Source: Magnetospirillum sp.
Lineage (GTDB): Bacteria > Pseudomonadota > Alphaproteobacteria > Rhodospirillales > Magnetospirillaceae
Assembly: GCA_020217035.1 (NCBI GenBank)
Contig: JAIWOG010000074.1
Span: 1 to 10,000 of the forward strand
Direction: 5' to 3'
Length of the DNA stretch: 10,000 nt
Part shown: piece by piece, positions 1-10,000 of the stretch
Layout: each line of letters begins with the position of its first letter
Numbering within the stretch: position 1 is the first letter of the stretch
Translations under genes and position numbers: made by a program
The notes under the pieces: generated by a model
Told to the model about the DNA's origin: nothing
The model's database searches: none
The model's input: only the letters and a program-made list of their open reading frames with translations

Positions 1-1455
1 ATCGACCCCGACCAGATCACCGAACGCAAGCCCACCAAGGGCGAAGTTCCATTCTACCGCGAAAACGGCCAGGCCGTCCCCCGCGGCATCAAGGGCTTGT
101 TCAGAAACCTCAAATGGTGGGCCGCCGGCATCTTGCTGGCGTGGTGGCACCTGGGTCCGTTCCTGCGCTGGGACCGTGGCGAAGGGGCGCCGGACCAGGC
201 CATCCTGCTCGACATGGCAGGCCGCCGGGCCTATTTCTTCGACATCGAGATCTGGCCCCAGGAAGTCTATTACGTCACCGGGCTGCTGTTGATCGCCGCC
301 ATATCGCTGTTCCTGATGAGCGCCTTGGCCGGCCGCATCTGGTGCGGATTCCTGTGCTGGCAGACCGTCTACACCGATTTGTTCCAGAACATCGAACGCT
401 GGGTCATCGGCGAACGCACCGCGCGGATCAATTTCCAGCGGGCGCCGGCCAGCCCCGGCAAGATCGCCAAGCAAGCCGTGGTCTACGCCGCCTGGGCCGC
501 CATCTCGGCCGCCTGCGGCATCGGCGTGACCCTGTGGTTCGGCGACGCCTTCCAGATGCTGGCCGACATCTTCACCCTGAACGCGCCGCCGGCCACCTAT
601 ATCTTCATCCTGATCATCGGCGGCTTCTGCTTCCTGTTGGGCGGCTTCGCCCGCGAGCGCGTCTGCGTCTACATGTGCCCCTATTCGCGCTTCCAGGCGG
701 CCATGTTCGACGAGCATTCGTTGATCGTCAGCTATGAATCCTGGCGCGGCGAACCGCGTGCCCCCGCCCCCAAGGATCGCAACTTCGAAGGTCGCGGCCA
801 TTGCGTCGATTGCAAGATGTGCGTCCAGGTGTGCCCCACCGGCGTCGACATCCGCTTCGGCAACCAGTTGGCCTGCATCGGCTGTGGCTTGTGCATCGAC
901 GCCTGCGACCAGATCATGGACAAGTTCGGCCTGCCCAAGGGGCTGATCTCCTATGATTCGGCGGTCAACCTGGCGGCCCGCGAAGACGGCAAGCCCGCGC
1001 CGGGCATCAAGCCCATCCGCCCCCGCACCGTGTTGTATGGCGGCCTTTTGGCCATCGTCGGCGGCGTCATGCTGACCGGCCTGCTGACGCGCTCCACCAC
1101 CGAGGTCAACGTTCTGCACGAACGCGCCCCGCTTTTCGTGGAAATGTCCGACGGCAGCGTGCGCAACGGCTACAATTACAAGATCCTGAACATGGTGCGC
1201 GAGACCCGCACCTACGTGCTGAAGACCGAGGGTCTGGCCGGCGCCACCTTGGACATGGTGGGTGGTGCCGCCGAGGTCAGCGCATTGGAATTGCCGGTGG
1301 AACCGGACCAGGTGGGCAATTTCCGCATCTTCGTCAACGTCCCCGCCGCGTCGCTGACCGGCCGGTCGTCGGACCTGACCTTCGTGCTGGTGGAAAAGGG
1401 CAAGGACGGCAAGCCGATCCGCAGCAAGACCCTGTTCGCCGGTCCTGATAAATAA
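1..1455 (+). CDS. ccoG: Cytochrome c oxidase accessory protein CcoG (FixG/RdxA family), 5' end cut by window
   Basis: Membrane-bound polyferredoxin needed to assemble cbb3-type cytochrome oxidase. Family members are linked to Cu(II) reduction for the copper centre. The reading frame is open to base 1, so the gene begins upstream; the TTG at 97 is not the start, because the 32 codons before it also fit the family's N-terminus. Visible residues (base 1 = residue 1): a first helix with LRWDRG after it; helix 2 ending in WCGFLC (C115, C119); a further helix pair; C222-x3-C226-P followed by YSRFQ; two 4Fe-4S motifs at C268/C271/C274/C278 and C292/C295/C298/C302; a helix near 340-360; then a C-terminal periplasmic immunoglobulin-like FixG_C domain. 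Stop TAA at 1453. Oddity: the first cysteine pair is CxxxCW, where I expect CxxxCP. A strong terminator follows at once, so ccoHIS are not directly downstream; ccoNOQP may lie upstream, which cannot be seen here. Confidence 0.95.
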   Translation: MDPDQITERKPTKGEVPFYRENGQAVPRGIKGLFRNLKWWAAGILLAWWHLGPFLRWDRGEGAPDQAILLDMAGRRAYFFDIEIWPQEVYYVTGLLLIAAISLFLMSALAGRIWCGFLCWQTVYTDLFQNIERWVIGERTARINFQRAPASPGKIAKQAVVYAAWAAISAACGIGVTLWFGDAFQMLADIFTLNAPPATYIFILIIGGFCFLLGGFARERVCVYMCPYSRFQAAMFDEHSLIVSYESWRGEPRAPAPKDRNFEGRGHCVDCKMCVQVCPTGVDIRFGNQLACIGCGLCIDACDQIMDKFGLPKGLISYDSAVNLAAREDGKPAPGIKPIRPRTVLYGGLLAIVGGVMLTGLLTRSTTEVNVLHERAPLFVEMSDGSVRNGYNYKILNMVRETRTYVLKTEGLAGATLDMVGGAAEVSALELPVEPDQVGNFRIFVNVPAASLTGRSSDLTFVLVEKGKDGKPIRSKTLFAGPDK

Positions 1456-1469
1456 AACAGGCCCTTTAG

Positions 1470-1506
1470 AAAACCCCGGAAAGCCACAAGTTTTCCGGGG
1501 TTTTTT
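1470..1506 (+). terminator. Intrinsic terminator of ccoG
   Basis: A perfect 13-bp stem pairs 1470-1482 (AAAACCCCGGAAA) with 1492-1504 (TTTCCGGGGTTTT), with a 9-base loop and a run of six T at 1501-1506. It begins 15 bases after the ccoG stop. The A-rich left arm means it could also work on the minus strand. Confidence 0.9.
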
Positions 1507-1510
1507 CTTG

Positions 1511-1544
1511 CCCTGATTTTGGGCTCGTCTGCCCAAACCCAGGG
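1511..1544. promoter_or_regulatory. Long interrupted dyad upstream of the sensor gene, possible activator site
   Basis: The inner arms TTTGGGC (1518-1524) and GCCCAAA (1531-1537) are perfect complements around TCGTCT. The outer arms CCCTG (1511-1515) and CAGGG (1540-1544) also pair, with a 2x2 internal mismatch between. The centre lies about 85 bases before the start predicted from the sigma-54-type element at 1587, in the usual range for an enhancer-binding-protein site. The arms do not match the NtrC or NifA consensus as I know them. It could instead be an RNA hairpin in read-through transcripts. Confidence 0.4.
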
Positions 1545-1586
1545 CGTCCATAGCTTGTCGCCACGGGATTTCCAGGGCTTGGCGCA

Positions 1587-1602
1587 CGGCACAGCGATTG
1601 CT
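1587..1602 (+). promoter_or_regulatory. Probable sigma-54 (-24/-12) promoter
   Basis: CGGCAC-N5-TTGCT matches the sigma-54 consensus TGGCAC-N5-TTGC(A/T) with one mismatch in the -24 box. The invariant GG (1588-1589) and GC (1600-1601) are exactly 10 bases apart. Transcription would start near 1612-1613, leaving a leader of about 23 bases that contains the ribosome site GGAGAG at 1625-1630. A chance match is possible in GC-rich DNA. Position, spacing and the upstream dyad all favour it. Confidence 0.5.
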
Positions 1603-1635
1603 TGTAAGGACGACAGCAACAACCGGAGAGCCATC

Positions 1636-3837
1636 ATGGTGACATCGGGTTCGCCGTTTTCCCGCAAGTCAATCTTGGCCGAATTGGCCAAGGCCGCCGA
1701 AGAGATCGCCGCCGGAGACCGCTTCGTCAAGGTGCCGGTCGTGAATGGCGCCGGGGCCGAGGCCCGGCTGGCCCGCGCCATCGAGGCCATGCGCCGCGCC
1801 TTGATCGAATCTGACGCCGCCATCGCCGAGCAGGAAGCCGACCGCGAGGTGCAGGAACAGCGCCGCCGGTCCACCGAAAACTTCGTCGCCAAGTTCGAAA
1901 CCACGGTCAGCGGCGTGCAATCCAGCCTGTCCCACGCCGCCGCCGGCATGCGCGACGCCGCCGGCGCCTTGGCCACCCAGGCCGGCACGGTGGCCGAGAA
2001 AAGCGCCGAGGTGGAAAAGGGCGCGGCGGTGGCCACCCAGGAAGCGGCGGTGCTGGCAGAAGCCGCCGGCCAGCTTGACCAGTCGCTGGGCGATTTGGAA
2101 GGCCGGGTGGCCCGCGCCGCGCAGGTCATCGCCCAGGCGGTGGACATGGTCGATTCCGCCGACAGCACCATTCGCGGCCTGTCGGAGGCCGCCGGCCGCA
2201 TCGGCGGCATGGCCCACACCATTTCCGACATCGCCGGCCAGACCCGCATGCTGGCGCTGAACGCCACCATCGAGGCGGCCCGCGCCGGAGAGGCCGGCAA
2301 GGGCTTCGCCGTGGTCGCCGCCGAGGTGAAGAGCCTGGTGGCGGAAACCGAAAAGGCCACCGCCGCCATCGACAGCCGGGCCGGCGACATCCGCCAGGCC
2401 ACCGACCAGGCGGTCGCCGCCATGAACGCCATCGGCCAGTCCATGCACGAGGTCAACGAATTGGTGGCCGCCGTCGCCGCCACCATGCATCAGCAAAGCG
2501 CCGCCAGCCGCGCCATCACCGACGGCGTCCGCCGCACCGCCGACGAGGCCGATGCCATGAGCGCGTCCATCCGCGAAGTGGCCGACGCCACCGTGCGGAC
2601 CCGCGCCGAGGCAGCCGGCGTGCGCGAAGCGGCCGGCGAGTTGGGCCGCCAATCCGACACATTGGGCCAGGCGGTGACCACCTTCTTGGACGATTTGGAC
2701 CACGGCGCCATCCGAATCGGCATCGTCCATTCGCTGTCGGGCGGTTCGGCGGTCGGCGAAAAGCCGCTGAAGGACGTACTGCTGGCAGAAATCGAGGCGC
2801 TGAACGCCCAGGGCGGCCTGCTGGGCCGTCCGGTCGAGGCACTGCTCTACAACCCGCGATCGGATGCCGGAAAATACGCCGAATTGGCCGAAAGAGCGCT
2901 GTCCGAGGACAGGGTGCAGGCGCTGTTCGGCGCCTGGTCGTCCACCTCGCGCAAGGCCATGCTGCCGGTGCTGGCCCGCCATGACGGCTTGCTGTTCTAC
3001 CCCTCGCAATACGAAGGGGCGGAATCCGACCCTCGTGTCGTCTATTGCGGGGCGCCGCCCAACCAGCAATTGCTGCCCGCCGTCGAATATCTGACAAGCC
3101 CGCAAGGCGGCGGCTTTGACCGCTTCTATCTGGTGGGCAACGACACCCTTTACCCGCGCCTGACCCACAAGGTGCTGACCGACGATCTGCGCCGACGCGG
3201 CGTGCCCGCCTCGGCGCTGCGCGAGACCCTGTTGCCGGTGGGCGCCGACGACTGGTCCAAGGTGGTGGCCGACATCCGTGCCTTCGCCCGGACCGGCGGC
3301 GGCAAGACCCTGGTGGTCAGCACCGTGGGCGGCGATTCCAACTTCCATTTCTTCCGCCAGTTGGGCGGCTCGGACGTGCCGGTGTTGACGGTGTCCATCG
3401 GCGAGGCCGAGGCGGCGCTGCTGGACCCCAAGCTGCTGGCCGGCCACATGGTGGCGTGGAACTACCTGATGAGCGTCGATACCCCGGAAAACCAAGACTT
3501 CCTGGCCCGATGGCGCCGGCGCGGCGGCGACGCCAAGGCGGTGGTCAACGACGCCATGGAAGCGTCGGTGATGGCGTTGCGCCTGTGGGCGCAAACGGTC
3601 CAAGCCTGCGGCAGCCCACAGGCCGCCCAGGTCCGTGCCGCGTTGCCCGGCCAGAAAACCCGGTCGCTGACCGGGTTCGACGTCAGCGTCGATCCCACCA
3701 ACAACCACCTGCACAAGCCCTGCCTGCTGGGCCGCATGCAGGCGGACGGCACCATCTCGATCCTGTGGCGGTCCAGCGGATTGATCGCCCCCGAGCCGGG
3801 CACCCCCCCGGAAGCCTTGCCCCAAGCCGCCGAGTGA
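1636..3837 (+). CDS. Soluble chemoreceptor: HAMP-like + MCP signalling domain + C-terminal UrtA/AmiC-type ligand-binding domain
   Basis: A 733-residue predicted chemoreceptor that would signal through CheW/CheA. ATG at 1636 is chosen for GGAGAG five bases upstream; the frame runs open to a TTG at 1519 inside the dyad and promoter region, which is implausible. Residues about 13-60 resemble a HAMP domain (AEEIAAGD, then LARAIEAM). Residues 60-350 are alanine-rich coiled coil with the MCP hairpin tip at 199-238, including [18 protein letters not shown] and [14 protein letters not shown]. Residues 359-715 are a type 1 periplasmic-binding fold of the Peripla_BP_5 kind: [28 protein letters not shown] and GAPPNQQ resemble urea-transport UrtA and amide sensor AmiC. 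There is no signal peptide, membrane helix or CheR-binding C-terminal pentapeptide, so the ligand domain should be cytoplasmic, as AmiC is. The likely ligand is urea or a short amide, by inference only. The His-rich gene at 3897 lies 59 bases downstream and is probably co-transcribed. Confidence 0.9.
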
Positions 3838-3896
3838 GTTGACTTGCCCACCCGTCCATGCCAGTTTCCGGCAAATGCCCGTAACGGAGAGAAACC

Positions 3897-4040
3897 ATGT
3901 CCGCTGTGCTGCAAGGGGTGATTCTGCTGCTGGTCGGCTCGGCCGTCGTTTACGGCCTGCTGATGTGCGTCGGCTCGGGAAAGGCCGCCGGCGGCCATGG
4001 CCACGGCCATGACAGCCACGGTGGGCACGGCCACCACTGA
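3897..4040 (+). CDS. 47-residue single-helix membrane protein with histidine-rich tail, function unknown
   Basis: ATG at 3897 has GGAGAG at 3886-3891, five bases upstream, and the frame ends with TGA at 4038. This is the same ribosome-site layout as the gene before it. Residues 4-26 form one hydrophobic helix (LQGVILLLVGSAVVYGLLM). Residues 32-47 are glycine/histidine-rich, with eight His among the last 14 residues plus one Asp. Such tails commonly bind Ni, Zn, Cu or Co; binding here is inferred. Lys29 is the only clear positive charge, so orientation is uncertain but weakly favours a cytoplasmic tail. It sits between the chemoreceptor gene and an intrinsic terminator. I recognise no named family. 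A chance frame is unlikely given the ribosome site, the helix and the terminator six bases after the stop. Confidence 0.75.
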   Translation: MSAVLQGVILLLVGSAVVYGLLMCVGSGKAAGGHGHGHDSHGGHGHH

Positions 4041-4046
4041 TCTTGG

Positions 4047-4075
4047 AACCCCGGCCCGGCGCCGGGGTTTTCTTT
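4047..4075 (+). terminator. Intrinsic terminator after the small His-rich gene
   Basis: Perfect arms AACCCCGGC (4047-4055) and GCCGGGGTT (4061-4069) enclose the loop CCGGC, followed by TTTCTTT through 4075. It closes the unit formed by the chemoreceptor and the small membrane protein. Confidence 0.85.
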
Positions 4076-4101
4076 GCCCCGTGACACAACGTTTAATTTT
4101 A

Positions 4102-4130
4102 TTAACACCTGTTATTTTACCCGTTTTAAT
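4102..4130 (+). promoter_or_regulatory. Sigma-70-type promoter of the decarboxylase gene
   Basis: TTAACA (4102-4107) and TTTAAT (4125-4130) are separated by 17 bases. Each matches its consensus (TTGACA, TATAAT) at five of six positions. The surrounding 4088-4140 is the most AT-rich stretch in the window, directly after a terminator. The start would fall near 4137, giving a leader of about 45 bases. Other register choices in this AT-rich block are possible. Confidence 0.5.
4103..4114. promoter_or_regulatory. Small palindrome over the -35 box, possible operator
   Basis: TAACA-CC-TGTTA is a perfect 5+5 dyad covering most of the proposed -35 hexamer at 4102-4107. Its position suits a repressor or activator site, but short dyads arise by chance in AT-rich DNA. 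Confidence 0.3.
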
Positions 4131-4181
4131 AATAGCCAATTTCGTGTCATCATCCTGGCCTTGGCATCAGGGAGGCGGACC

Positions 4182-5426
4182 ATGACCGAAGACAAGACCA
4201 TCGCGAAACTGCGTCATGGCGGTTGGCTGCCACGGGCCGAAAATGCCCTGGCGGCCTTTCGCGTCGAGATCGAAGCGGAAGTGGCGGCCCATCCGGACCG
4301 GCCGTTGGTGCGCCCGGTTCAGGCGCTTTACGACACCATCATGGACCATCCGCTTTACCGCATGCACCTGACCCAGGCCATCGAGCAGGCCCGGACCAGC
4401 GGCCACCAACTGGGTTATGCCGACATCCATGGGCTGATGCGGCGGATCAACGCGGTGATGCGCTATGCGCCGCCTTATTCCACCTCGGAACTGGTGGGCT
4501 GCCCGCTGAACGCGTTGTTGGACTGGCCCATGTGCATGCCGTCGGGCTTCGCCTTCTTCCAGTTCCCGGAAATCAACGCCCGCCTGCGCGACGTGCTGAA
4601 TTACTGGAGCGACTTCCTGTCCGGCCCTGATTCCCGGCATTACCTGACCACCCAGAATCCCAAGGGTTGGTTCAGTTCCAACGCCGCCACGAACGTGGAC
4701 ATGACGCTGTTCGTCTGCGACCCGGCCCTGCCCCATTACGGCTACAAATCGTGGAACGATTTCTTCACCCGGCGGTTCAAACCGGGAATGCGCCCCGTGG
4801 CCGAACCCGACAACCCGCTTCTGGTGACGTCCGCCTGCGAATCGACACCTTTCGCCCTGCAACGGGGTGTCAAGACCCAGGACCAGTTCTGGATCAAGGC
4901 TCAACCCTATTCGCTGTTCGACATGTTCAGCGCCGACCGCAGCGACCTGGCCCAGCATTTCACCGGCGGCACCGTCTACCAGGCGTTCCTGTCCGCCTAT
5001 AACTATCACCGCTGGCACGCCCCGGTGGCCGGCACGGTGGTGGACGCCTATCTGGTACCCGGCACCTATTACGCCGACGCGCCGTCGGAAGGGTTGGATC
5101 CCGCTGGTCCCAACAATTCCCAGGGCTTCATCACCGCGGTGGCGACCCGCGCCGTGATGGTGGTCGACACCGGCAACACCCATCTGGGCAAGGTAGCGAT
5201 GATCTTCGTCGGCATGGCGGAAATCTCGTCTTGCGTGTTCAGCGTCAAGGTCGGCGACCAACTGAAGAAAGGCGACGAGATTGGATATTTCCAATATGGC
5301 GGTTCGACCCACTGCCTGATCTTCGACGCCAGCGTGACCCTGGACTTCATCCCGCCCCAGCCCTATGGCGAGGACGACAACCAGATCGTCCCGCTGAACT
5401 CGGCCCTGGCGCGGGTGAAGGGGTGA
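4182..5426 (+). CDS. Phosphatidylserine decarboxylase superfamily protein with PsiD-like N-terminal extension
   Basis: A 414-residue pyruvoyl-dependent decarboxylase homologue. ATG at 4182 has GGAGG at 4171-4175; the frame is open back to 4074, but that part is the terminator and AT-rich promoter. Residues about 10-150 match my memory of the extension (PF12588) found before the catalytic domain in fungal tryptophan decarboxylase PsiD and bacterial relatives. The catalytic domain follows: WNDFFTRRFKPG (191-202), YNYHRWHAPVAGTV (273-286, catalytic-type His), and GGST (373-376). In this family the proenzyme cleaves itself before Ser375, which becomes the pyruvoyl group. Where classical enzymes have SPADG, this one has SACES (217-221), so the Asp is replaced. 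There is no membrane anchor. Substrate could be phosphatidylserine, tryptophan or another amino acid; the extended N-terminus argues against an ordinary Psd. It converges on the carbamoyltransferase, 14 bases away. Confidence 0.85.
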   Translation: MTEDKTIAKLRHGGWLPRAENALAAFRVEIEAEVAAHPDRPLVRPVQALYDTIMDHPLYRMHLTQAIEQARTSGHQLGYADIHGLMRRINAVMRYAPPYSTSELVGCPLNALLDWPMCMPSGFAFFQFPEINARLRDVLNYWSDFLSGPDSRHYLTTQNPKGWFSSNAATNVDMTLFVCDPALPHYGYKSWNDFFTRRFKPGMRPVAEPDNPLLVTSACESTPFALQRGVKTQDQFWIKAQPYSLFDMFSADRSDLAQHFTGGTVYQAFLSAYNYHRWHAPVAGTVVDAYLVPGTYYADAPSEGLDPAGPNNSQGFITAVATRAVMVVDTGNTHLGKVAMIFVGMAEISSCVFSVKVGDQLKKGDEIGYFQYGGSTHCLIFDASVTLDFIPPQPYGEDDNQIVPLNSALARVKG

Positions 5427-5440
5427 TTCCAGCGTGACCT

Positions 5441-7072
5441 TCAGTCCCGGATCAGCATTTTCTCGCCGATCACCATCATTTCAGCGGGCGTTGTCTGCCA
5501 GAAACGCAGAGCGTCATCAGGAGTTTCCACCAACGGTTCGCCATTGACGTTCAACGACGTGTTCAGCAAAACCGGCACCCCGGTCCGTTCGCCCAGCAAT
5601 CCCAGCAACCGATAGATCGCTGGATTGCTGGAGGCAGTCACCGTCTGCAAGCGGGCAGTGCCGTCCACATGAGCGATAGCCGGCAGACGCTGGGGATCGC
5701 GGGTCTTGGCGGTGAACAGCATGAACGGGCTTTCATGCTCCCATTCAAACCATTGGCTGGCATCCTCGGCTCGAACCATGGGGGCGAAGGGGCGAAACCA
5801 TTCTCGACGCTTGACCTTGAAATTCAAATGATCACGCATGTCTGGATTGCGGGCGTCAGCCAGGATCGACCGATTACCCAGCGCTCGCGGGCCAAACTCG
5901 GCTCGGCCGCGACACCAGCCCACCACCTTGCCGGCGGCGATGCCATCCGCCACCACGCCCAAATCCAACGGCAGACCCGTGTCGATCTCGTCATAAGACC
6001 GGCCCAAATAGGCGACCTCTTCGGGCTGGTAGTGCACGCGGGCTTCATTGATCACATGATGGCTCAGAAACAAAGCCGCTCCCACCGCGGTTCCGTCGTC
6101 ACCACAGCCCGGGAACAGGCCGAGGCGCTGGAAAGGCGTGCGCTGCAAGATGGCCGAATTGGTGTTGCAGTTCAAAAACGACCCGCCGGACAAGCACAGA
6201 TTGCCGTCATTGTAGCGTTTGGTGCGTTCGAACAAGGTGTTGGCCGAGGCGACCATGGTTTCCTCGAACACGTATTGCAGTGAAGCGGCGATGTCCATGC
6301 TGCGTTGGCTGTCGCTTTCCGGGGCGGGAAACTCCACATGCGGCGCCACTTCGGCGAAATCCGACCACATCAGGTCGATGAAGCGCAAATCATCAGGCTG
6401 GGCCGGGCGGTCATAAAAGGATCGTCCGTATTCCCGCCAGTTATCCACCGCCACCGGCAAGGGCTTGCCATAGGACGCCAGCCCCATGGTGGTGCCCGCC
6501 TTGAACAAGCCGTCGCCCAAGCCTAGTTTGCGGGTGAATTGGTGATAGGCATTGCCGATCATGATGCCGGGGCAGTAAAGCGGGTACAGTTTGGTGTCGT
6601 CGCCATAGGCGAACAACGAACACGCTTCCGGCCGAACCATGGAGGAATCGACGCTCATTGCCGCCGATTTCTCGAAATTGCTGGTGTAGAAGGCGCTGGC
6701 GCAATGGGACAGATGGTGTTGGACGAAGAAGGCGCGGATCGGCTGTCCGAACAGGAGCCCTTTGTATTCCTCCACGAAACGACCTTCTGGCATATCCCAA
6801 AGGTTTCGCTTCAGTTCGCCACCACTTACCTTGTCCAACAGCTTCAAGGGGCAATCAGGGCTGTAAGTGTAAACGGCGAAGGCAACAGCGCTGATGTCCT
6901 GACGTCGCACCTGGCCGATATCCAGCACATAATCGATATCCTGCGGACGAATGCCGCTGTCTTTCTTAACCCGGGTCAGACGCTCGCGGGAGATGGCTGC
7001 AACCAGACGTCCATCCTTTACCAAGGCCACGGCACCGTCATGGCCGACATTCACCCCCAGGACAACGCTCAT
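5441..7072 (-). CDS. Carbamoyltransferase, NodU/CmcH/TobZ family
   Basis: A 543-residue enzyme expected to transfer a carbamoyl group from carbamoyl phosphate, via carbamoyl-adenylate, to a hydroxyl on a sugar or secondary metabolite. ATG at 7072 follows GGGGGA three bases upstream; an in-frame TTG at 7087 would add five residues. N-terminal Kae1-like domain: LGVNVGHDGA near residue 5, metal-type HHLSH (H119, H123), LSGGSFLNCNTNS (294-306) and GCGDDGTAVGAA (322-333). C-terminal YrdC-like domain: GRAEFGPRALGNRSILA (389-405), RPFAPMV (427-433) and NTSLNVNGEPLVETPDDA (504-521). Both domains are complete. Oddity: after the HHLSH segment, the DGxGE-type motif I expect reads DSSMVRPE (142-149). GC by eye is about 55%, lower than most of the window. 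It lies 50 bases downstream of parE with no clear terminator or promoter between, so read-through is possible. No neighbour identifies the acceptor. Confidence 0.93.
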   Translation of the reverse strand: MSVVLGVNVGHDGAVALVKDGRLVAAISRERLTRVKKDSGIRPQDIDYVLDIGQVRRQDISAVAFAVYTYSPDCPLKLLDKVSGGELKRNLWDMPEGRFVEEYKGLLFGQPIRAFFVQHHLSHCASAFYTSNFEKSAAMSVDSSMVRPEACSLFAYGDDTKLYPLYCPGIMIGNAYHQFTRKLGLGDGLFKAGTTMGLASYGKPLPVAVDNWREYGRSFYDRPAQPDDLRFIDLMWSDFAEVAPHVEFPAPESDSQRSMDIAASLQYVFEETMVASANTLFERTKRYNDGNLCLSGGSFLNCNTNSAILQRTPFQRLGLFPGCGDDGTAVGAALFLSHHVINEARVHYQPEEVAYLGRSYDEIDTGLPLDLGVVADGIAAGKVVGWCRGRAEFGPRALGNRSILADARNPDMRDHLNFKVKRREWFRPFAPMVRAEDASQWFEWEHESPFMLFTAKTRDPQRLPAIAHVDGTARLQTVTASSNPAIYRLLGLLGERTGVPVLLNTSLNVNGEPLVETPDDALRFWQTTPAEMMVIGEKMLIRD

Positions 7073-7122
7073 GTTTCCCCCGATCAAAGAACAAGCCGCA
7101 GCTTAAACGACGCGATGGTGCC

Positions 7123-9114
7123 TCACACGTCCAGATCGCGGGCGAAGCGGGCATGCTTCTGGATGTAGTGGAAGCGCAGTTCCGGCTTCTTGCCCATCAG
7201 GGTTTCCACCAGGTTGGCCACGTCCTTGGCCTCTTCCTGGTCTTCCTCGGTGCGGCCGGACGGCAGGGTCACCCGAATCAGGCTGCGCTTGGCCGGGTTC
7301 ATGGTGGTTTCCTTCAACTGGGCCGGGGGCATTTCGCCCAAGCCCTTGAAGCGGCTGATTTCCACGTTCTTCTTGCCGGCGAACAGCGTCTTCATCAGCT
7401 CGTCCTTGTGGGCGTCGTCGCGGGCGTAGATGACGGTTTGGCCGTGGGCCAGGCGGTAAAGCGGCGGCATGGCCAGGTACAGGTGCCCCAGACGGATCAG
7501 TTCCGGCATTTCCTGATAGAAGAAGGTCATCAGCAGGCTGGCGATGTGGGCGCCGTCCACGTCGGCGTCGGTCATGATGATGACGCGTTCATAGCGCAGC
7601 TTTTCGGCGTCGAAGGCATCGCGGGTGCCGCAGCCCAGCGCCTCCATCAAATCCTTGACTTCCTGGTTGGCCCTGAGCTTGTCGGCGCTGGCGGACGCCA
7701 CGTTCAGGATCTTGCCCTTCAAGGGCAGGATGGCCTGGGTCTCGCGGTTGCGGCCCTGCTTGGCCGAGCCGCCGGCCGAGTCACCTTCCACCAGGAACAA
7801 TTCGGTGCCGACATTGACCTGACGGGTGCAGTCGGCCAGCTTGCCGGGCAGGCGCAGCTTCTTGGTCGCCGTCTTGCGGCTGGTTTCCTTGGCCGCCTTC
7901 TTGCGCTGGCGTTCCTCGGCCTTCTCGATCAGCTTGGCCAGCAACGCCTTGCCCGAATCCGGGTCGGCCGACAGCCAATGGTCGAAATGGTCCTTGATGG
8001 CGTTTTCCACCAAACGGGTGGCTTCGGCGCTGACCAGCTTTTCCTTGGTCTGGCCCTGGAACTGCGGATCGCGGATGAACAGCGACACCAGGACGCAGGC
8101 GCCGCCCATGACGTCTTCCGCCGTCACCTGGGCCGCCTTCTTGTTGCCCAGCAACTCGCCGTAACCACGCAAGCCCTTGGTCAGGGCATTGCGCAGGCCG
8201 GCTTCGTGGGTGCCGCCCTCGGGGGTGGGCACCGTGTTGCAATAGGTGTTGACGAAGCCGTCCTCGTCGTCGTCGGGCCAGGCCACCGCCCATTCCACCT
8301 GCCCCATGTCGTCGGCAAGCGGCGCGGTGCCGGCGAAGAAGCCCCGCGTGATCAGCGGCCGGTCCTTCATCACGGCGACCAGGAAGTCGGCCAGACCGTT
8401 GGGGAAATGCAGAATATCCTCGGCCGGGATGTCGTCACCGTCATCCACCAGCAGCGGATCGCATTTCCACCTGATCTGCACGCCCCGGAACAGATAGGCC
8501 TTGGAGCGGGCCATGCGGTAAAGGGTGCGGGCCTTCAGGTGCGCCCGGTCACCGAAAATCTCGGGGTCGGGATGGAAGCGCACAGAGGTGCCGCGCCGGT
8601 TCTGCACCGGCCCGACCATGGTCGCCGGCCCCAAGGCCGCGCCCTTGGAGAAACTTTGCCGCCACAATTGACGGTCACGCGCCACTTCCACCACCAGGGA
8701 ATCGGACAACGCGTTGACCACCGATACGCCGACGCCGTGCAGGCCGCCCGACACCTTGTAGGCGTCGCCGCCGAACTTGCCGCCCGAATGCAGCGTGGTC
8801 AGGATGACTTCCAGCGCACTCTTGTCGGGAAACTTCGGATGGGGGTCCACCGGGATGCCGCGCCCGTTGTCGCGCACCGTGGCATACCCCGCCGCGTCCA
8901 GTTCCAGGTCAATCCAACTGGCGTGGCCGGCCACCGCCTCGTCCATGGAATTGTCCAGCACTTCCGCCACCAAGTGATGAAGCGCCCGGTCGTCGGTGCC
9001 GCCGATATACATGCCCGGCCGGCGGCGCACCGGTTCAAGCCCCTCCAGGACCTCGATGTCCTTGGCGGAATATTCGGTGGCTTTGGGGGCGAGTTGCTGG
9101 AACAGATCGGACAT
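7123..9114 (-). CDS. parE: DNA topoisomerase IV subunit B (ParE)
   Basis: ATPase subunit of topoisomerase IV, which with ParC decatenates replicated chromosomes. The 663-residue length is normal for ParE and short for GyrB. GHKL ATPase motifs: VAEVLDNSMDEA (49-60), DNGRG (82-86), GGLHGVGVSVVNALS (123-137), and the transducer lysine in QTKEKL (355-360). TOPRIM motifs: EGDSAG (443-448) and DADVD (516-520); then ISRFKGLGEM (586-595) and a C-terminus ending in RDLDV. KKLRLPGKLADCT (418-430) and the ending favour ParE over GyrB. ATG at 9114 is chosen because homologues start near MSDLF. Another ATG at 9123 in the same frame overlaps the -10 box. Neither start has a Shine-Dalgarno. parC is not in the window. 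No fusion, truncation or missing catalytic residue was seen. Confidence 0.95.
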   Translation of the reverse strand: MSDLFQQLAPKATEYSAKDIEVLEGLEPVRRRPGMYIGGTDDRALHHLVAEVLDNSMDEAVAGHASWIDLELDAAGYATVRDNGRGIPVDPHPKFPDKSALEVILTTLHSGGKFGGDAYKVSGGLHGVGVSVVNALSDSLVVEVARDRQLWRQSFSKGAALGPATMVGPVQNRRGTSVRFHPDPEIFGDRAHLKARTLYRMARSKAYLFRGVQIRWKCDPLLVDDGDDIPAEDILHFPNGLADFLVAVMKDRPLITRGFFAGTAPLADDMGQVEWAVAWPDDDEDGFVNTYCNTVPTPEGGTHEAGLRNALTKGLRGYGELLGNKKAAQVTAEDVMGGACVLVSLFIRDPQFQGQTKEKLVSAEATRLVENAIKDHFDHWLSADPDSGKALLAKLIEKAEERQRKKAAKETSRKTATKKLRLPGKLADCTRQVNVGTELFLVEGDSAGGSAKQGRNRETQAILPLKGKILNVASASADKLRANQEVKDLMEALGCGTRDAFDAEKLRYERVIIMTDADVDGAHIASLLMTFFYQEMPELIRLGHLYLAMPPLYRLAHGQTVIYARDDAHKDELMKTLFAGKKNVEISRFKGLGEMPPAQLKETTMNPAKRSLIRVTLPSGRTEEDQEEAKDVANLVETLMGKKPELRFHYIQKHARFARDLDV

Positions 9115-9121
9115 GGGCGGC

Positions 9122-9149
9122 ATTATAGGAGAGCATTGGTCAGGCGCAA
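9122..9149 (-). promoter_or_regulatory. parE promoter, possibly giving a leaderless mRNA
   Basis: On the minus strand a perfect TATAAT (9127-9122) is followed by GCCGCCC and then the parE ATG at 9114. A start 7-8 bases after the -10 box would be the A of that ATG. A partial -35, TTGCGC (9149-9144), lies 16 bases upstream. The GC-rich discriminator is the kind seen in growth-rate-controlled promoters, which is inference here. Confidence 0.5.
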
Positions 9150-9156
9150 GCGCCTG
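9141..9156. repeat. Perfect 7+7 palindrome between parE and yciA
   Basis: CAGGCGC-AA-GCGCCTG lies in the 85-base divergent gap. It covers the proposed -35 box of parE and sits about 44-59 bases before the yciA ATG. It could be an operator affecting both genes. It has no T-run, so it is not a terminator. Confidence 0.45.
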
Positions 9157-9199
9157 CTGTAGGGTGGCGTCAATTGGATACAACATATTGGGTTTTCGC

Positions 9200-9598
9200 A
9201 TGACCGAGAGTATCGAAACCACCACCGCGCCTCGCGGCCGTCTGTCCATCCGCACGGTGGCCATGCCCGCCGACACCAACCCGCACGGCGCCATTTTCGG
9301 CGGCTGGGTGCTGGCGCAGATGGATTTGGCCGGCGGCACCCACGCCTTTCACCGGGCCAAGGGGCTGGTGGTCACGGTGGCGGTGGATTCCATGACCTTC
9401 CACGAGCCGGTCTTCGTCGGTGACGAGGTCAGCTGCTACACCGAGATCGTGCGTATCGGCAATTCGTCCATCTCGGTGCGGGTCGAAGCCTGGGTGCGCC
9501 GCGACAACCGCGACGAACAGATCAAGGTGACCAGCGCCATGTTCCACTTCGTCGCCGTCAACCCCGACCGGTCCAAGCGCCGGGTGCCGGCGGAGTAA
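9200..9598 (+). CDS. yciA: Acyl-CoA thioesterase, YciA-type hotdog protein
   Basis: A 132-residue single-hotdog thioesterase that hydrolyses acyl-CoA to free acid and CoA in the cytoplasm; YciA relatives act as hexamers with broad substrate range. Visible motifs: RTVAMPADTNPHGAIFGGWV (18-37) followed by the active-site-type Asp in QMD (40-42), VTVAVDSMTFHEPVFVGDEV (58-77), and a C-terminal TSAMFHFVAVNPDR (111-124), all in family order. ATG at 9200 fits the usual N-terminus; the frame is open upstream only through the parE shadow. The ribosome site is weak (TTGGG at 9188-9192), and no convincing sigma-70 promoter was found. It diverges from parE and ends two bases before the opposing gene's stop. 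It probably serves fatty acid or CoA recycling. Confidence 0.92.
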   Translation: MTESIETTTAPRGRLSIRTVAMPADTNPHGAIFGGWVLAQMDLAGGTHAFHRAKGLVVTVAVDSMTFHEPVFVGDEVSCYTEIVRIGNSSISVRVEAWVRRDNRDEQIKVTSAMFHFVAVNPDRSKRRVPAE

Positions 9599-9600
9599 AC

Positions 9601-10000
9601 CTATTTCCCCACCGGCCAGGTGACCTTGAAGCCGGCGACATAGCCGTCGATGATGTCTACGGCGATGGGGAACGGCGCCCAGGTCCACATTTCCGGGCCG
9701 TCCGCCTTGGTCCGGCACCGCTCTCCCGGCAACCCCAAGGTGTCGATCACCTTCTGCTGGTCGTCGCCCAGGGTCAGGCCCGAGAAGGTGGCGGGAATCC
9801 GCATGGGCGGGCCGACCAGTTGCACGGCGACCACCTGCGCGTCGCGATAGGTCACCACGTAATGGGGGCGCAGGGCGCCGCGCTGCTGGATTTCGTAAAG
9901 CCGGGTCTCGGTGAACAGGTCGATGTCGGACTTGGCCACCGGGGCGCCCAGAACATTCTCCACACTGCCCAGGCCGTCGCCCACCGCCACCGCGCCGACC
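9601..10000 (-). CDS. Unrecognised protein, 5' end cut by window; two similar G/D-x-V-LG-P motifs
   Basis: The frame is open to the right edge, so the N-terminus is missing; the GTG at 9990 is internal-looking and should not be taken as the start. 132 residues are visible, ending with TAG at 9601-9603. Two short segments resemble each other: VGDGLGSVENVLGAP (6-20) and LGDDQQKVIDTLGLP (77-91), about 71 residues apart. The pattern of G, hydrophobic, V and LGxP recalls SmpA/BamE or BLIP-like repeats, which often occur in exported proteins, but similarity is too weak to name a family. The C-terminus is aromatic and beta-like (MWTWAPFPIAVDIIDGYVAG). One cysteine (C95) is visible. No membrane segment is seen in this part; a signal peptide would be outside the window. 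It converges on yciA with a 2-base gap. Confidence 0.7.
   Translation of the reverse strand, partial: VGAVAVGDGLGSVENVLGAPVAKSDIDLFTETRLYEIQQRGALRPHYVVTYRDAQVVAVQLVGPPMRIPATFSGLTLGDDQQKVIDTLGLPGERCRTKADGPEMWTWAPFPIAVDIIDGYVAGFKVTWPVGK

Follow-up and report, generated by a model that had tools for sequence, protein, structure and literature searches.

Why would a chemoreceptor carry a type-1 periplasmic-binding fold behind its signalling domain, in a protein with no predicted membrane helix? The question is raised by an uninterrupted open reading frame at 1636..3837 (+), encoding 733 residues, in a 10,000-nucleotide stretch of Magnetospirillum sp. DNA (contig JAIWOG010000074.1, positions 1 to 10,000; hereafter the window). 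An earlier note, made from the sequence alone, had read it as a fully soluble chemoreceptor of inverted domain order that, through an amide/urea-type domain inside the cell, could couple nitrogen status to motility. We conclude, with a probability of roughly 0.7, that the encoded protein is a cytoplasmic chemoreceptor from a distinct family found mainly in Alphaproteobacteria, and that its C-terminal UrtA/AmiC-type domain senses a small molecule inside the cell that resembles urea or an amide.

Domain order and topology

The protein is a chemoreceptor, as first proposed: the methyl-accepting chemotaxis protein (MCP) signalling domain, MCPsignal, matches residues 160-321 with 84.9 bits against a curated Pfam cut-off of 34.6, the tip is invariant, and the structure model has long antiparallel helices (41-216 and 218-356). 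The cytoplasmic hairpin as a whole spans residues about 60-356 (1813..2703, + strand). Its tip, residues 199-231 (2230..2328, +), consists of invariant columns in a 55-row alignment and is what we take, by family knowledge, to be the CheA/CheW-binding region. From about residue 93 to 350 the hairpin aligns without gaps to the second MCP of Methyloligella sp. GL2 (locus L079), than which GL2's own receptor has three residues fewer in this region. Peripla_BP_5 follows at residues 359-721 (2710..3798, +; 372.6 bits, cut-off 27), confirming the inverted order; the start at 359 stands, while the end lies nearer 721 than the 715 given at first. The N-terminal segment, residues about 12-58 (1669..1809, +), had been called HAMP-like, which is fair but not proven. 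The model places a helix at 13-25, a loop and a helix starting at 41 there, and at E up to 0.01 HAMP (PF00672) is matched by 9 of the 55 proteins in the alignment (counted per protein, without the place of the match), but the window receptor has no Pfam HAMP match at E up to 1.

Is the sensor inside the cell? The highest 19-residue Kyte-Doolittle mean is 1.02, against a membrane-helix threshold of 1.6, and by this hydropathy measure alone the window receptor has no membrane helix and no hydrophobic signal segment. The domain is thus predicted to lie in the cytoplasm, as claimed, and the protein has both marks of a cytoplasmic chemoreceptor with a C-terminal sensor, namely no membrane helix and a ligand domain after the signalling domain. 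The findings that would have counted against the earlier note, a membrane helix or signal peptide (checked by hydropathy only) and a different fold or a lost pocket, did not appear.

Several known systems resemble parts of this design. UrtA (TIGR03407; PDB 8tg1, 7s6e, 8hic, 7s6f) shares the fold of the sensor domain, but the receptor is fused to an MCP, lacks a signal-like hydrophobic segment and has no ABC transporter gene in the window. AmiC of the Pseudomonas amidase operon (PDB 1pea, 1qnl, 1qo0) is alike in fold, with 30% identity; it is free-standing and acts on AmiR, whereas the receptor's domain is part of a chemoreceptor, and no AmiR-type partner is encoded by the six frames scanned around it in the window. 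Cytoplasmic chemoreceptors with C-terminal sensors, such as the CZB MCPs, also place the sensor after the signalling domain, but the window receptor's is a two-lobed domain of the UrtA type. According to section 10 of PMC7390727, the C-terminal part of chemoreceptors carries at least 17 types of ligand-binding domain, CZB by far the commonest; an UrtA-type C-terminal sensor may already be listed in a supplementary figure of that paper. MtpA of Methylobacterium aquaticum 22A, in the excerpt of PMC10613068 considered here, is likewise cytosolic and without a transmembrane region, and is linked to metabolism; it differs in that no domain besides the MCP signalling domain was detected in it. Among the matches listed, no paper describing an MCP-UrtA fusion was found, judged by titles and beginnings of abstracts. 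C-terminal sensors as such being known, the points of interest are the inverted UrtA-type sensor, a split between anchored and soluble members, an altered pocket and hosts without flagella.

A family of anchored and soluble receptors

Of the 120 proteins listed, one of which is the query, 119 have both MCPsignal and the binding domain (precomputed Pfam); the sole exception, P0026 (496 residues), has the binding domain only. Sequence patterns taken from the query retrieved 56 loci, and in 47 of these, including the complete GL2 chromosome, the match covers both domains. The record titles are mostly alphaproteobacterial (Magnetospirillum, Pseudolabrys, Pseudorhodoplanes, Methyloligella, Methyloceanibacter, Methylosinus and Beijerinckia, for example), and one locus, L012, is a metagenome bin titled Stygiobacter. 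In a survey of 385 alphaproteobacterial genomes, with at most 8 candidates scored in each at E up to 1e-30, four had a match across the domain junction at >250 bits (G000, which is the window's genome, G068, G071 and G192; G071 and G007 share the same coordinates and were counted as one). The remaining rows listed mostly begin within the binding domain and are mostly frames of about 400-600, with a few longer ones (G159, G288, G344); genomes lacking a match mostly have no row. Source names in the 120-protein list are nearly always those of transporters, for example 'transporter substrate-binding protein' or 'urea transport system substrate-binding protein', and P0120 has a UniRef name beginning 'Methyl-accepting transducer'. 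Because of such database names, the family is largely hidden among transporters.

The claim of full solubility holds for the window receptor and not for the family. Across 116 full-length proteins, the window's among them, N-terminal hydrophobic helices number two in 76, one in 17 and none in 20, and an additional later hydrophobic segment occurs in 3. A quick binding-domain tree was built from 70 rows without bootstrap, with 45 of 61 thinned receptors taken in hit-list order and P0226 present twice under two labels. Its 45 receptor rows form a single clade (SH-aLRT 97), within which the soluble rows cluster together, the transmembrane-bearing P0024 and P0025 being basal to them and P0016 nested within. 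The simplest reading of these sequences is a single fusion with an anchored ancestor, whose anchor was lost ahead of the window's clade. A membrane hairpin of two helices would likewise keep the MCP hairpin and the sensor cytoplasmic.

Pocket, ligand and output

What might the domain bind? Sequence and structure model agree on an UrtA/AmiC-type fold, as the earlier note had it. The closest solved structures by sequence are the urea-binding 8tg1 (280 bits) and 7s6e (210), with AmiC at 134 bits, and the domain scores 351.6 bits with the UrtA model TIGR03407, under its curated cut-off of 492.75. Pocket residues were set by alignment columns to AmiC and UrtA, rather than by contacts from coordinates or a paper. 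Nine of them (W434, S436, Y455, Q458, Y459, E460, Q478, W608 and Y610) are identical in 120/120 listed proteins, which makes for a conserved pocket. Most compared residues equal UrtA's, and two differ consistently. Position 457 (codon 3004..3006, +), aligned with AmiC position 106, is Ser in 116/116 full-length receptors versus Val (68) or Leu (1) in 69 free UrtA-type proteins, Ile being a further residue of UrtA here. Position 565 (codon 3328..3330, +), aligned with AmiC position 206, is Gly in the window receptor and Ser, Gly or Thr in 115/116 receptors (Asn in one) versus Asn in 69/69. Members of the UrtA set were taken from the hits to the query itself and filtered by a short N-terminal extension and Gln at 458. 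After thinning (61 receptors, 16 UrtA-type proteins), 23 of 363 positions distinguish the two groups. We take AmiC residues 83, 85, 106, 150, 152 and 206 to be ligand contacts, and 1qnl is presumably AmiC T106N. These patterns suggest a pocket that probably still functions and whose preferred ligand is probably not plain urea.

Gene content was compared within 31 distinct receptor genomes only. A urease-alpha match >90 bits occurs in 20 (one partial) and UrtA over its cut-off in 19. A strong urease match is lacking in 11, and nine (G000, G005, G006, G007, G015, G016, G020, G025 and G028) have neither strong urease, nor UrtA over cut-off, nor a FmdA/AmdA match, other amidases not having been searched. 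The window's genome is one of these: it has no free-standing UrtA over cut-off, no FmdA/AmdA match (with the same limit), and a partial urease match of 28.3 bits, formally above the Pfam cut-off of 23, where strong matches exceed 90. Several of the nine have such partial matches of 21-29 bits, some formally past the cut-off, which are presumably other amidohydrolases. Some receptor genomes are incomplete drafts; the G016 (GL2) record is titled complete genome. The receptor does not require urease, UrtA or FmdA/AmdA genes, and gene content shows no more than that. UrtA-like paralogues were also seen: GL2 has a free-standing one at G016:C1:786642-787745 (452-residue frame, 330 bits, under cut-off), and the Beijerinckia genome of locus L054 (G026) has nine UrtA-type matches, one within an 821-residue frame.

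Which machinery does the receptor serve? Genome searches, which left out the genome of locus L023, found CheA in 28 of 29 receptor genomes and FlhA in 25. Neither FlhA nor flagellar rod matches were found in G015, G016, G024 and G028 (0/4), while 4/4 comparison genomes have rod matches. These hosts are Methyloligella halotolerans, Methyloligella sp. GL2, Methyloceanibacter marginalis and M. superfactus, of genera that are presumably non-motile. Each has one CheA match and 2, 2, 3 and 3 MCPsignal matches, respectively, the third in each Methyloceanibacter being the second piece of one broken frame. On the complete GL2 chromosome, the two MCP genes are the receptor (789-residue frame, L084) and a 419-residue MCP (L079), and a row of genes encodes an HPTransfase, CheA (Hpt, kinase, CheW, receiver), CheW, a CheY-like receiver, CheB and CheR. 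The M. superfactus HPTransfase passes the NCBI ChpT model. This che block recurs in G015 (cheA broken) and G028 (further breaks), and a GL2-like cheA is found in G001, G002 and, truncated at a contig end, the window's own genome. Draft frames of the receptor, second MCP, cheA and neighbours are broken in Methyloceanibacter and Methyloligella (L051, L067, L068, L085, L088); the receptor is affected in G024, the second MCP in G028 and cheA in G015 and G028, by assembly error or decay. Twitching was considered as an output and set aside: PilT passes its cut-off in 0/4 flagella-less genomes, with sub-cut-off matches in three, and likewise in 0/3 flagellated comparisons, so this says little. At the level of titles and beginnings of abstracts, a literature search found nothing on chemotaxis in Methyloligella.

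We propose that the sensor domain would bind a small urea- or amide-like intracellular molecule, which the pocket substitutions and gene content suggest is probably not simply urea. The second helix of the hairpin continues, nearly straight and at a fixed spacing, into the domain's first strand; because of this joint, closure of the cleft should rotate or displace that helix relative to the other one and thereby control CheA. Flagellar genes are present in the window's host, where the output would probably be swimming; in flagella-less relatives the same receptor would have to feed another output or a relic pathway. Judged from sequence, this chain from ligand to CheA control is likely. Several observations weigh against parts of it. 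Domain placement in the model is uncertain, given a pTM of 0.65 for a monomer and block pLDDT of 73-84 along most of the hairpin. The free-standing P0148, outside the UrtA set, carries A457 and S565; among further matches beyond the 120, P0158 and P0210 differ at position 478 and P0231 is poorly aligned across the pocket. The quick tree does not settle the branching order of receptors, UrtA and P0148, and anchor loss rests on that same tree, with its long branches and with one hydrophobic helix in P0016 inside the soluble clade. No neighbour gene names the ligand.

Could the domain be a genuine urea sensor, with the specificity of UrtA retained, that informs the chemotaxis system of urea inside the cell, whether taken up, diffused in or released by arginine breakdown? 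Its nearest solved structures and the majority of its compared pocket residues point that way, as do the 20 and 19 genomes of 31 with strong urease and UrtA; yet the two substitutions set the receptors apart from all 69 UrtA-type proteins, the score falls well short of the UrtA cut-off, and 11 genomes lack strong urease, nine of them UrtA and FmdA/AmdA as well. We regard that sensor as unlikely; urea produced inside the cell is a possible ligand. The low UrtA score would also suit a domain that has ceased to bind and merely stabilises or positions the receptor, but identical pocket residues in 120/120 proteins and a binding-domain dN/dS of 0.142/0.753 between the two Methyloligella make this very improbable. 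Joining of two genes by frameshift or mis-assembly has nothing in its favour and is negligible, being refuted by independent occurrences at 47 of 56 loci, one on a complete chromosome. Against the proposed coupling of urea or amide nitrogen to motility stand the substitutions at 457 and 565, the absence, among the genes searched, of strong urease, UrtA over cut-off and FmdA/AmdA from the window's genome, mostly housekeeping neighbours and the four flagella-less hosts; it is not supported.

Does at least part of the family serve a Che pathway unrelated to motility? The four hosts without FlhA or rod matches keep CheA and MCPsignal proteins, GL2 retains its whole row from the chpT-like gene to cheR, and comparing the receptors of the two Methyloligella gives a dN/dS of 0.196/0.928 = 0.21. 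Such constraint is not special, however: values are 0.30 between two FlhA-bearing Methylosinus, 0.12 for L010/L011, 0.35 and 0.39 for each Methyloligella against M. superfactus, and, between the two Methyloligella, 0.320/0.922 (0.35) for the alignable part of cheA and 0.199/0.920 for the second MCP, all with the proviso that a dS close to 1 is hard to measure well. Even in hosts lacking flagella, purifying selection seems to act on the receptor, no more strongly than elsewhere. With FlhA in 25 of 29 receptor genomes and broken receptor, MCP and cheA frames in the drafts, we hold a non-motility role to be possible, if on balance unlikely; the pathway in these hosts may have another task or be a slowly decaying relic. 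Rather improbable is the fuller version, in which the family would be the input of a non-swimming chemosensory pathway, linking an intracellular amide- or urea-like metabolite to another cellular output and acting in GL2 as one of only two receptors for cheA-cheW-cheY-cheB-cheR beside a chpT-like cell-cycle phosphotransfer gene. Methyloligella, with two receptors, one che operon and no flagellar match, would allow a direct test for a Che output other than motility. For the cytoplasmic sensor that we favour, a two-lobed domain at fixed spacing on a hairpin helix offers a simple system for C-terminal driving of a chemoreceptor.

Gene start and surroundings

The start of the receptor gene (1636..3837, +, stop codon included) at its ATG is backed by relatives: in L010 and L011 the corresponding ATG is the first start codon after an in-frame stop that lies 10-11 codons upstream, and L012 has an in-frame stop 25 codons upstream with two TTG in between. 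GGAG at 1625..1628 (+), 7 bases ahead of the ATG and read directly, is a likely ribosome-binding site and also precedes the ATG in all three. A terminator-like element at 1470..1506 (+), between ccoG and the receptor, was read directly from the sequence: an inverted repeat (aaaaccccggaaa / ttttccgggg) with a T run behind it.

The six scanned window neighbours are ccoG, a phosphatidylserine decarboxylase (PSD)-like gene, a carbamoyltransferase, parE, a thioesterase and one without family; no urea or amide gene is among them. The PSD-like frame (4074-5426, +) has an extra N-terminal PSDC domain (PF12588) and scores under the cut-offs of four matched NCBIfam PSD models, and the carbamoyltransferase (5441-7087, -) has a weak NodU match of 181.5 bits against a cut-off of 1000. 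We also clustered the frames of the 56 loci and the window, called by a simple ORF finder with antisense shadows included and with the 9 loci not spanning both domains retained. The commonest neighbours (n=57) are a DsbH-like thioredoxin protein (26), Rho (18) and URO-D (15), then Kinase-PPPase (12), LysR (12) and MnmE (10). One protein scanned from each of 20 neighbour clusters gave no urease and no amidase, three being without family. The neighbourhood was accordingly rejected as a clue to the ligand, its conserved members being mostly housekeeping genes. A branched-chain-type ABC ATPase among the scanned clusters occurs in L045, a receptor locus, and in L059, L061 and L065, which are not receptor loci. 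The LysR-type regulator, exemplified by L018:4735-5700 less than 1 kb upstream of the receptor, might control it.
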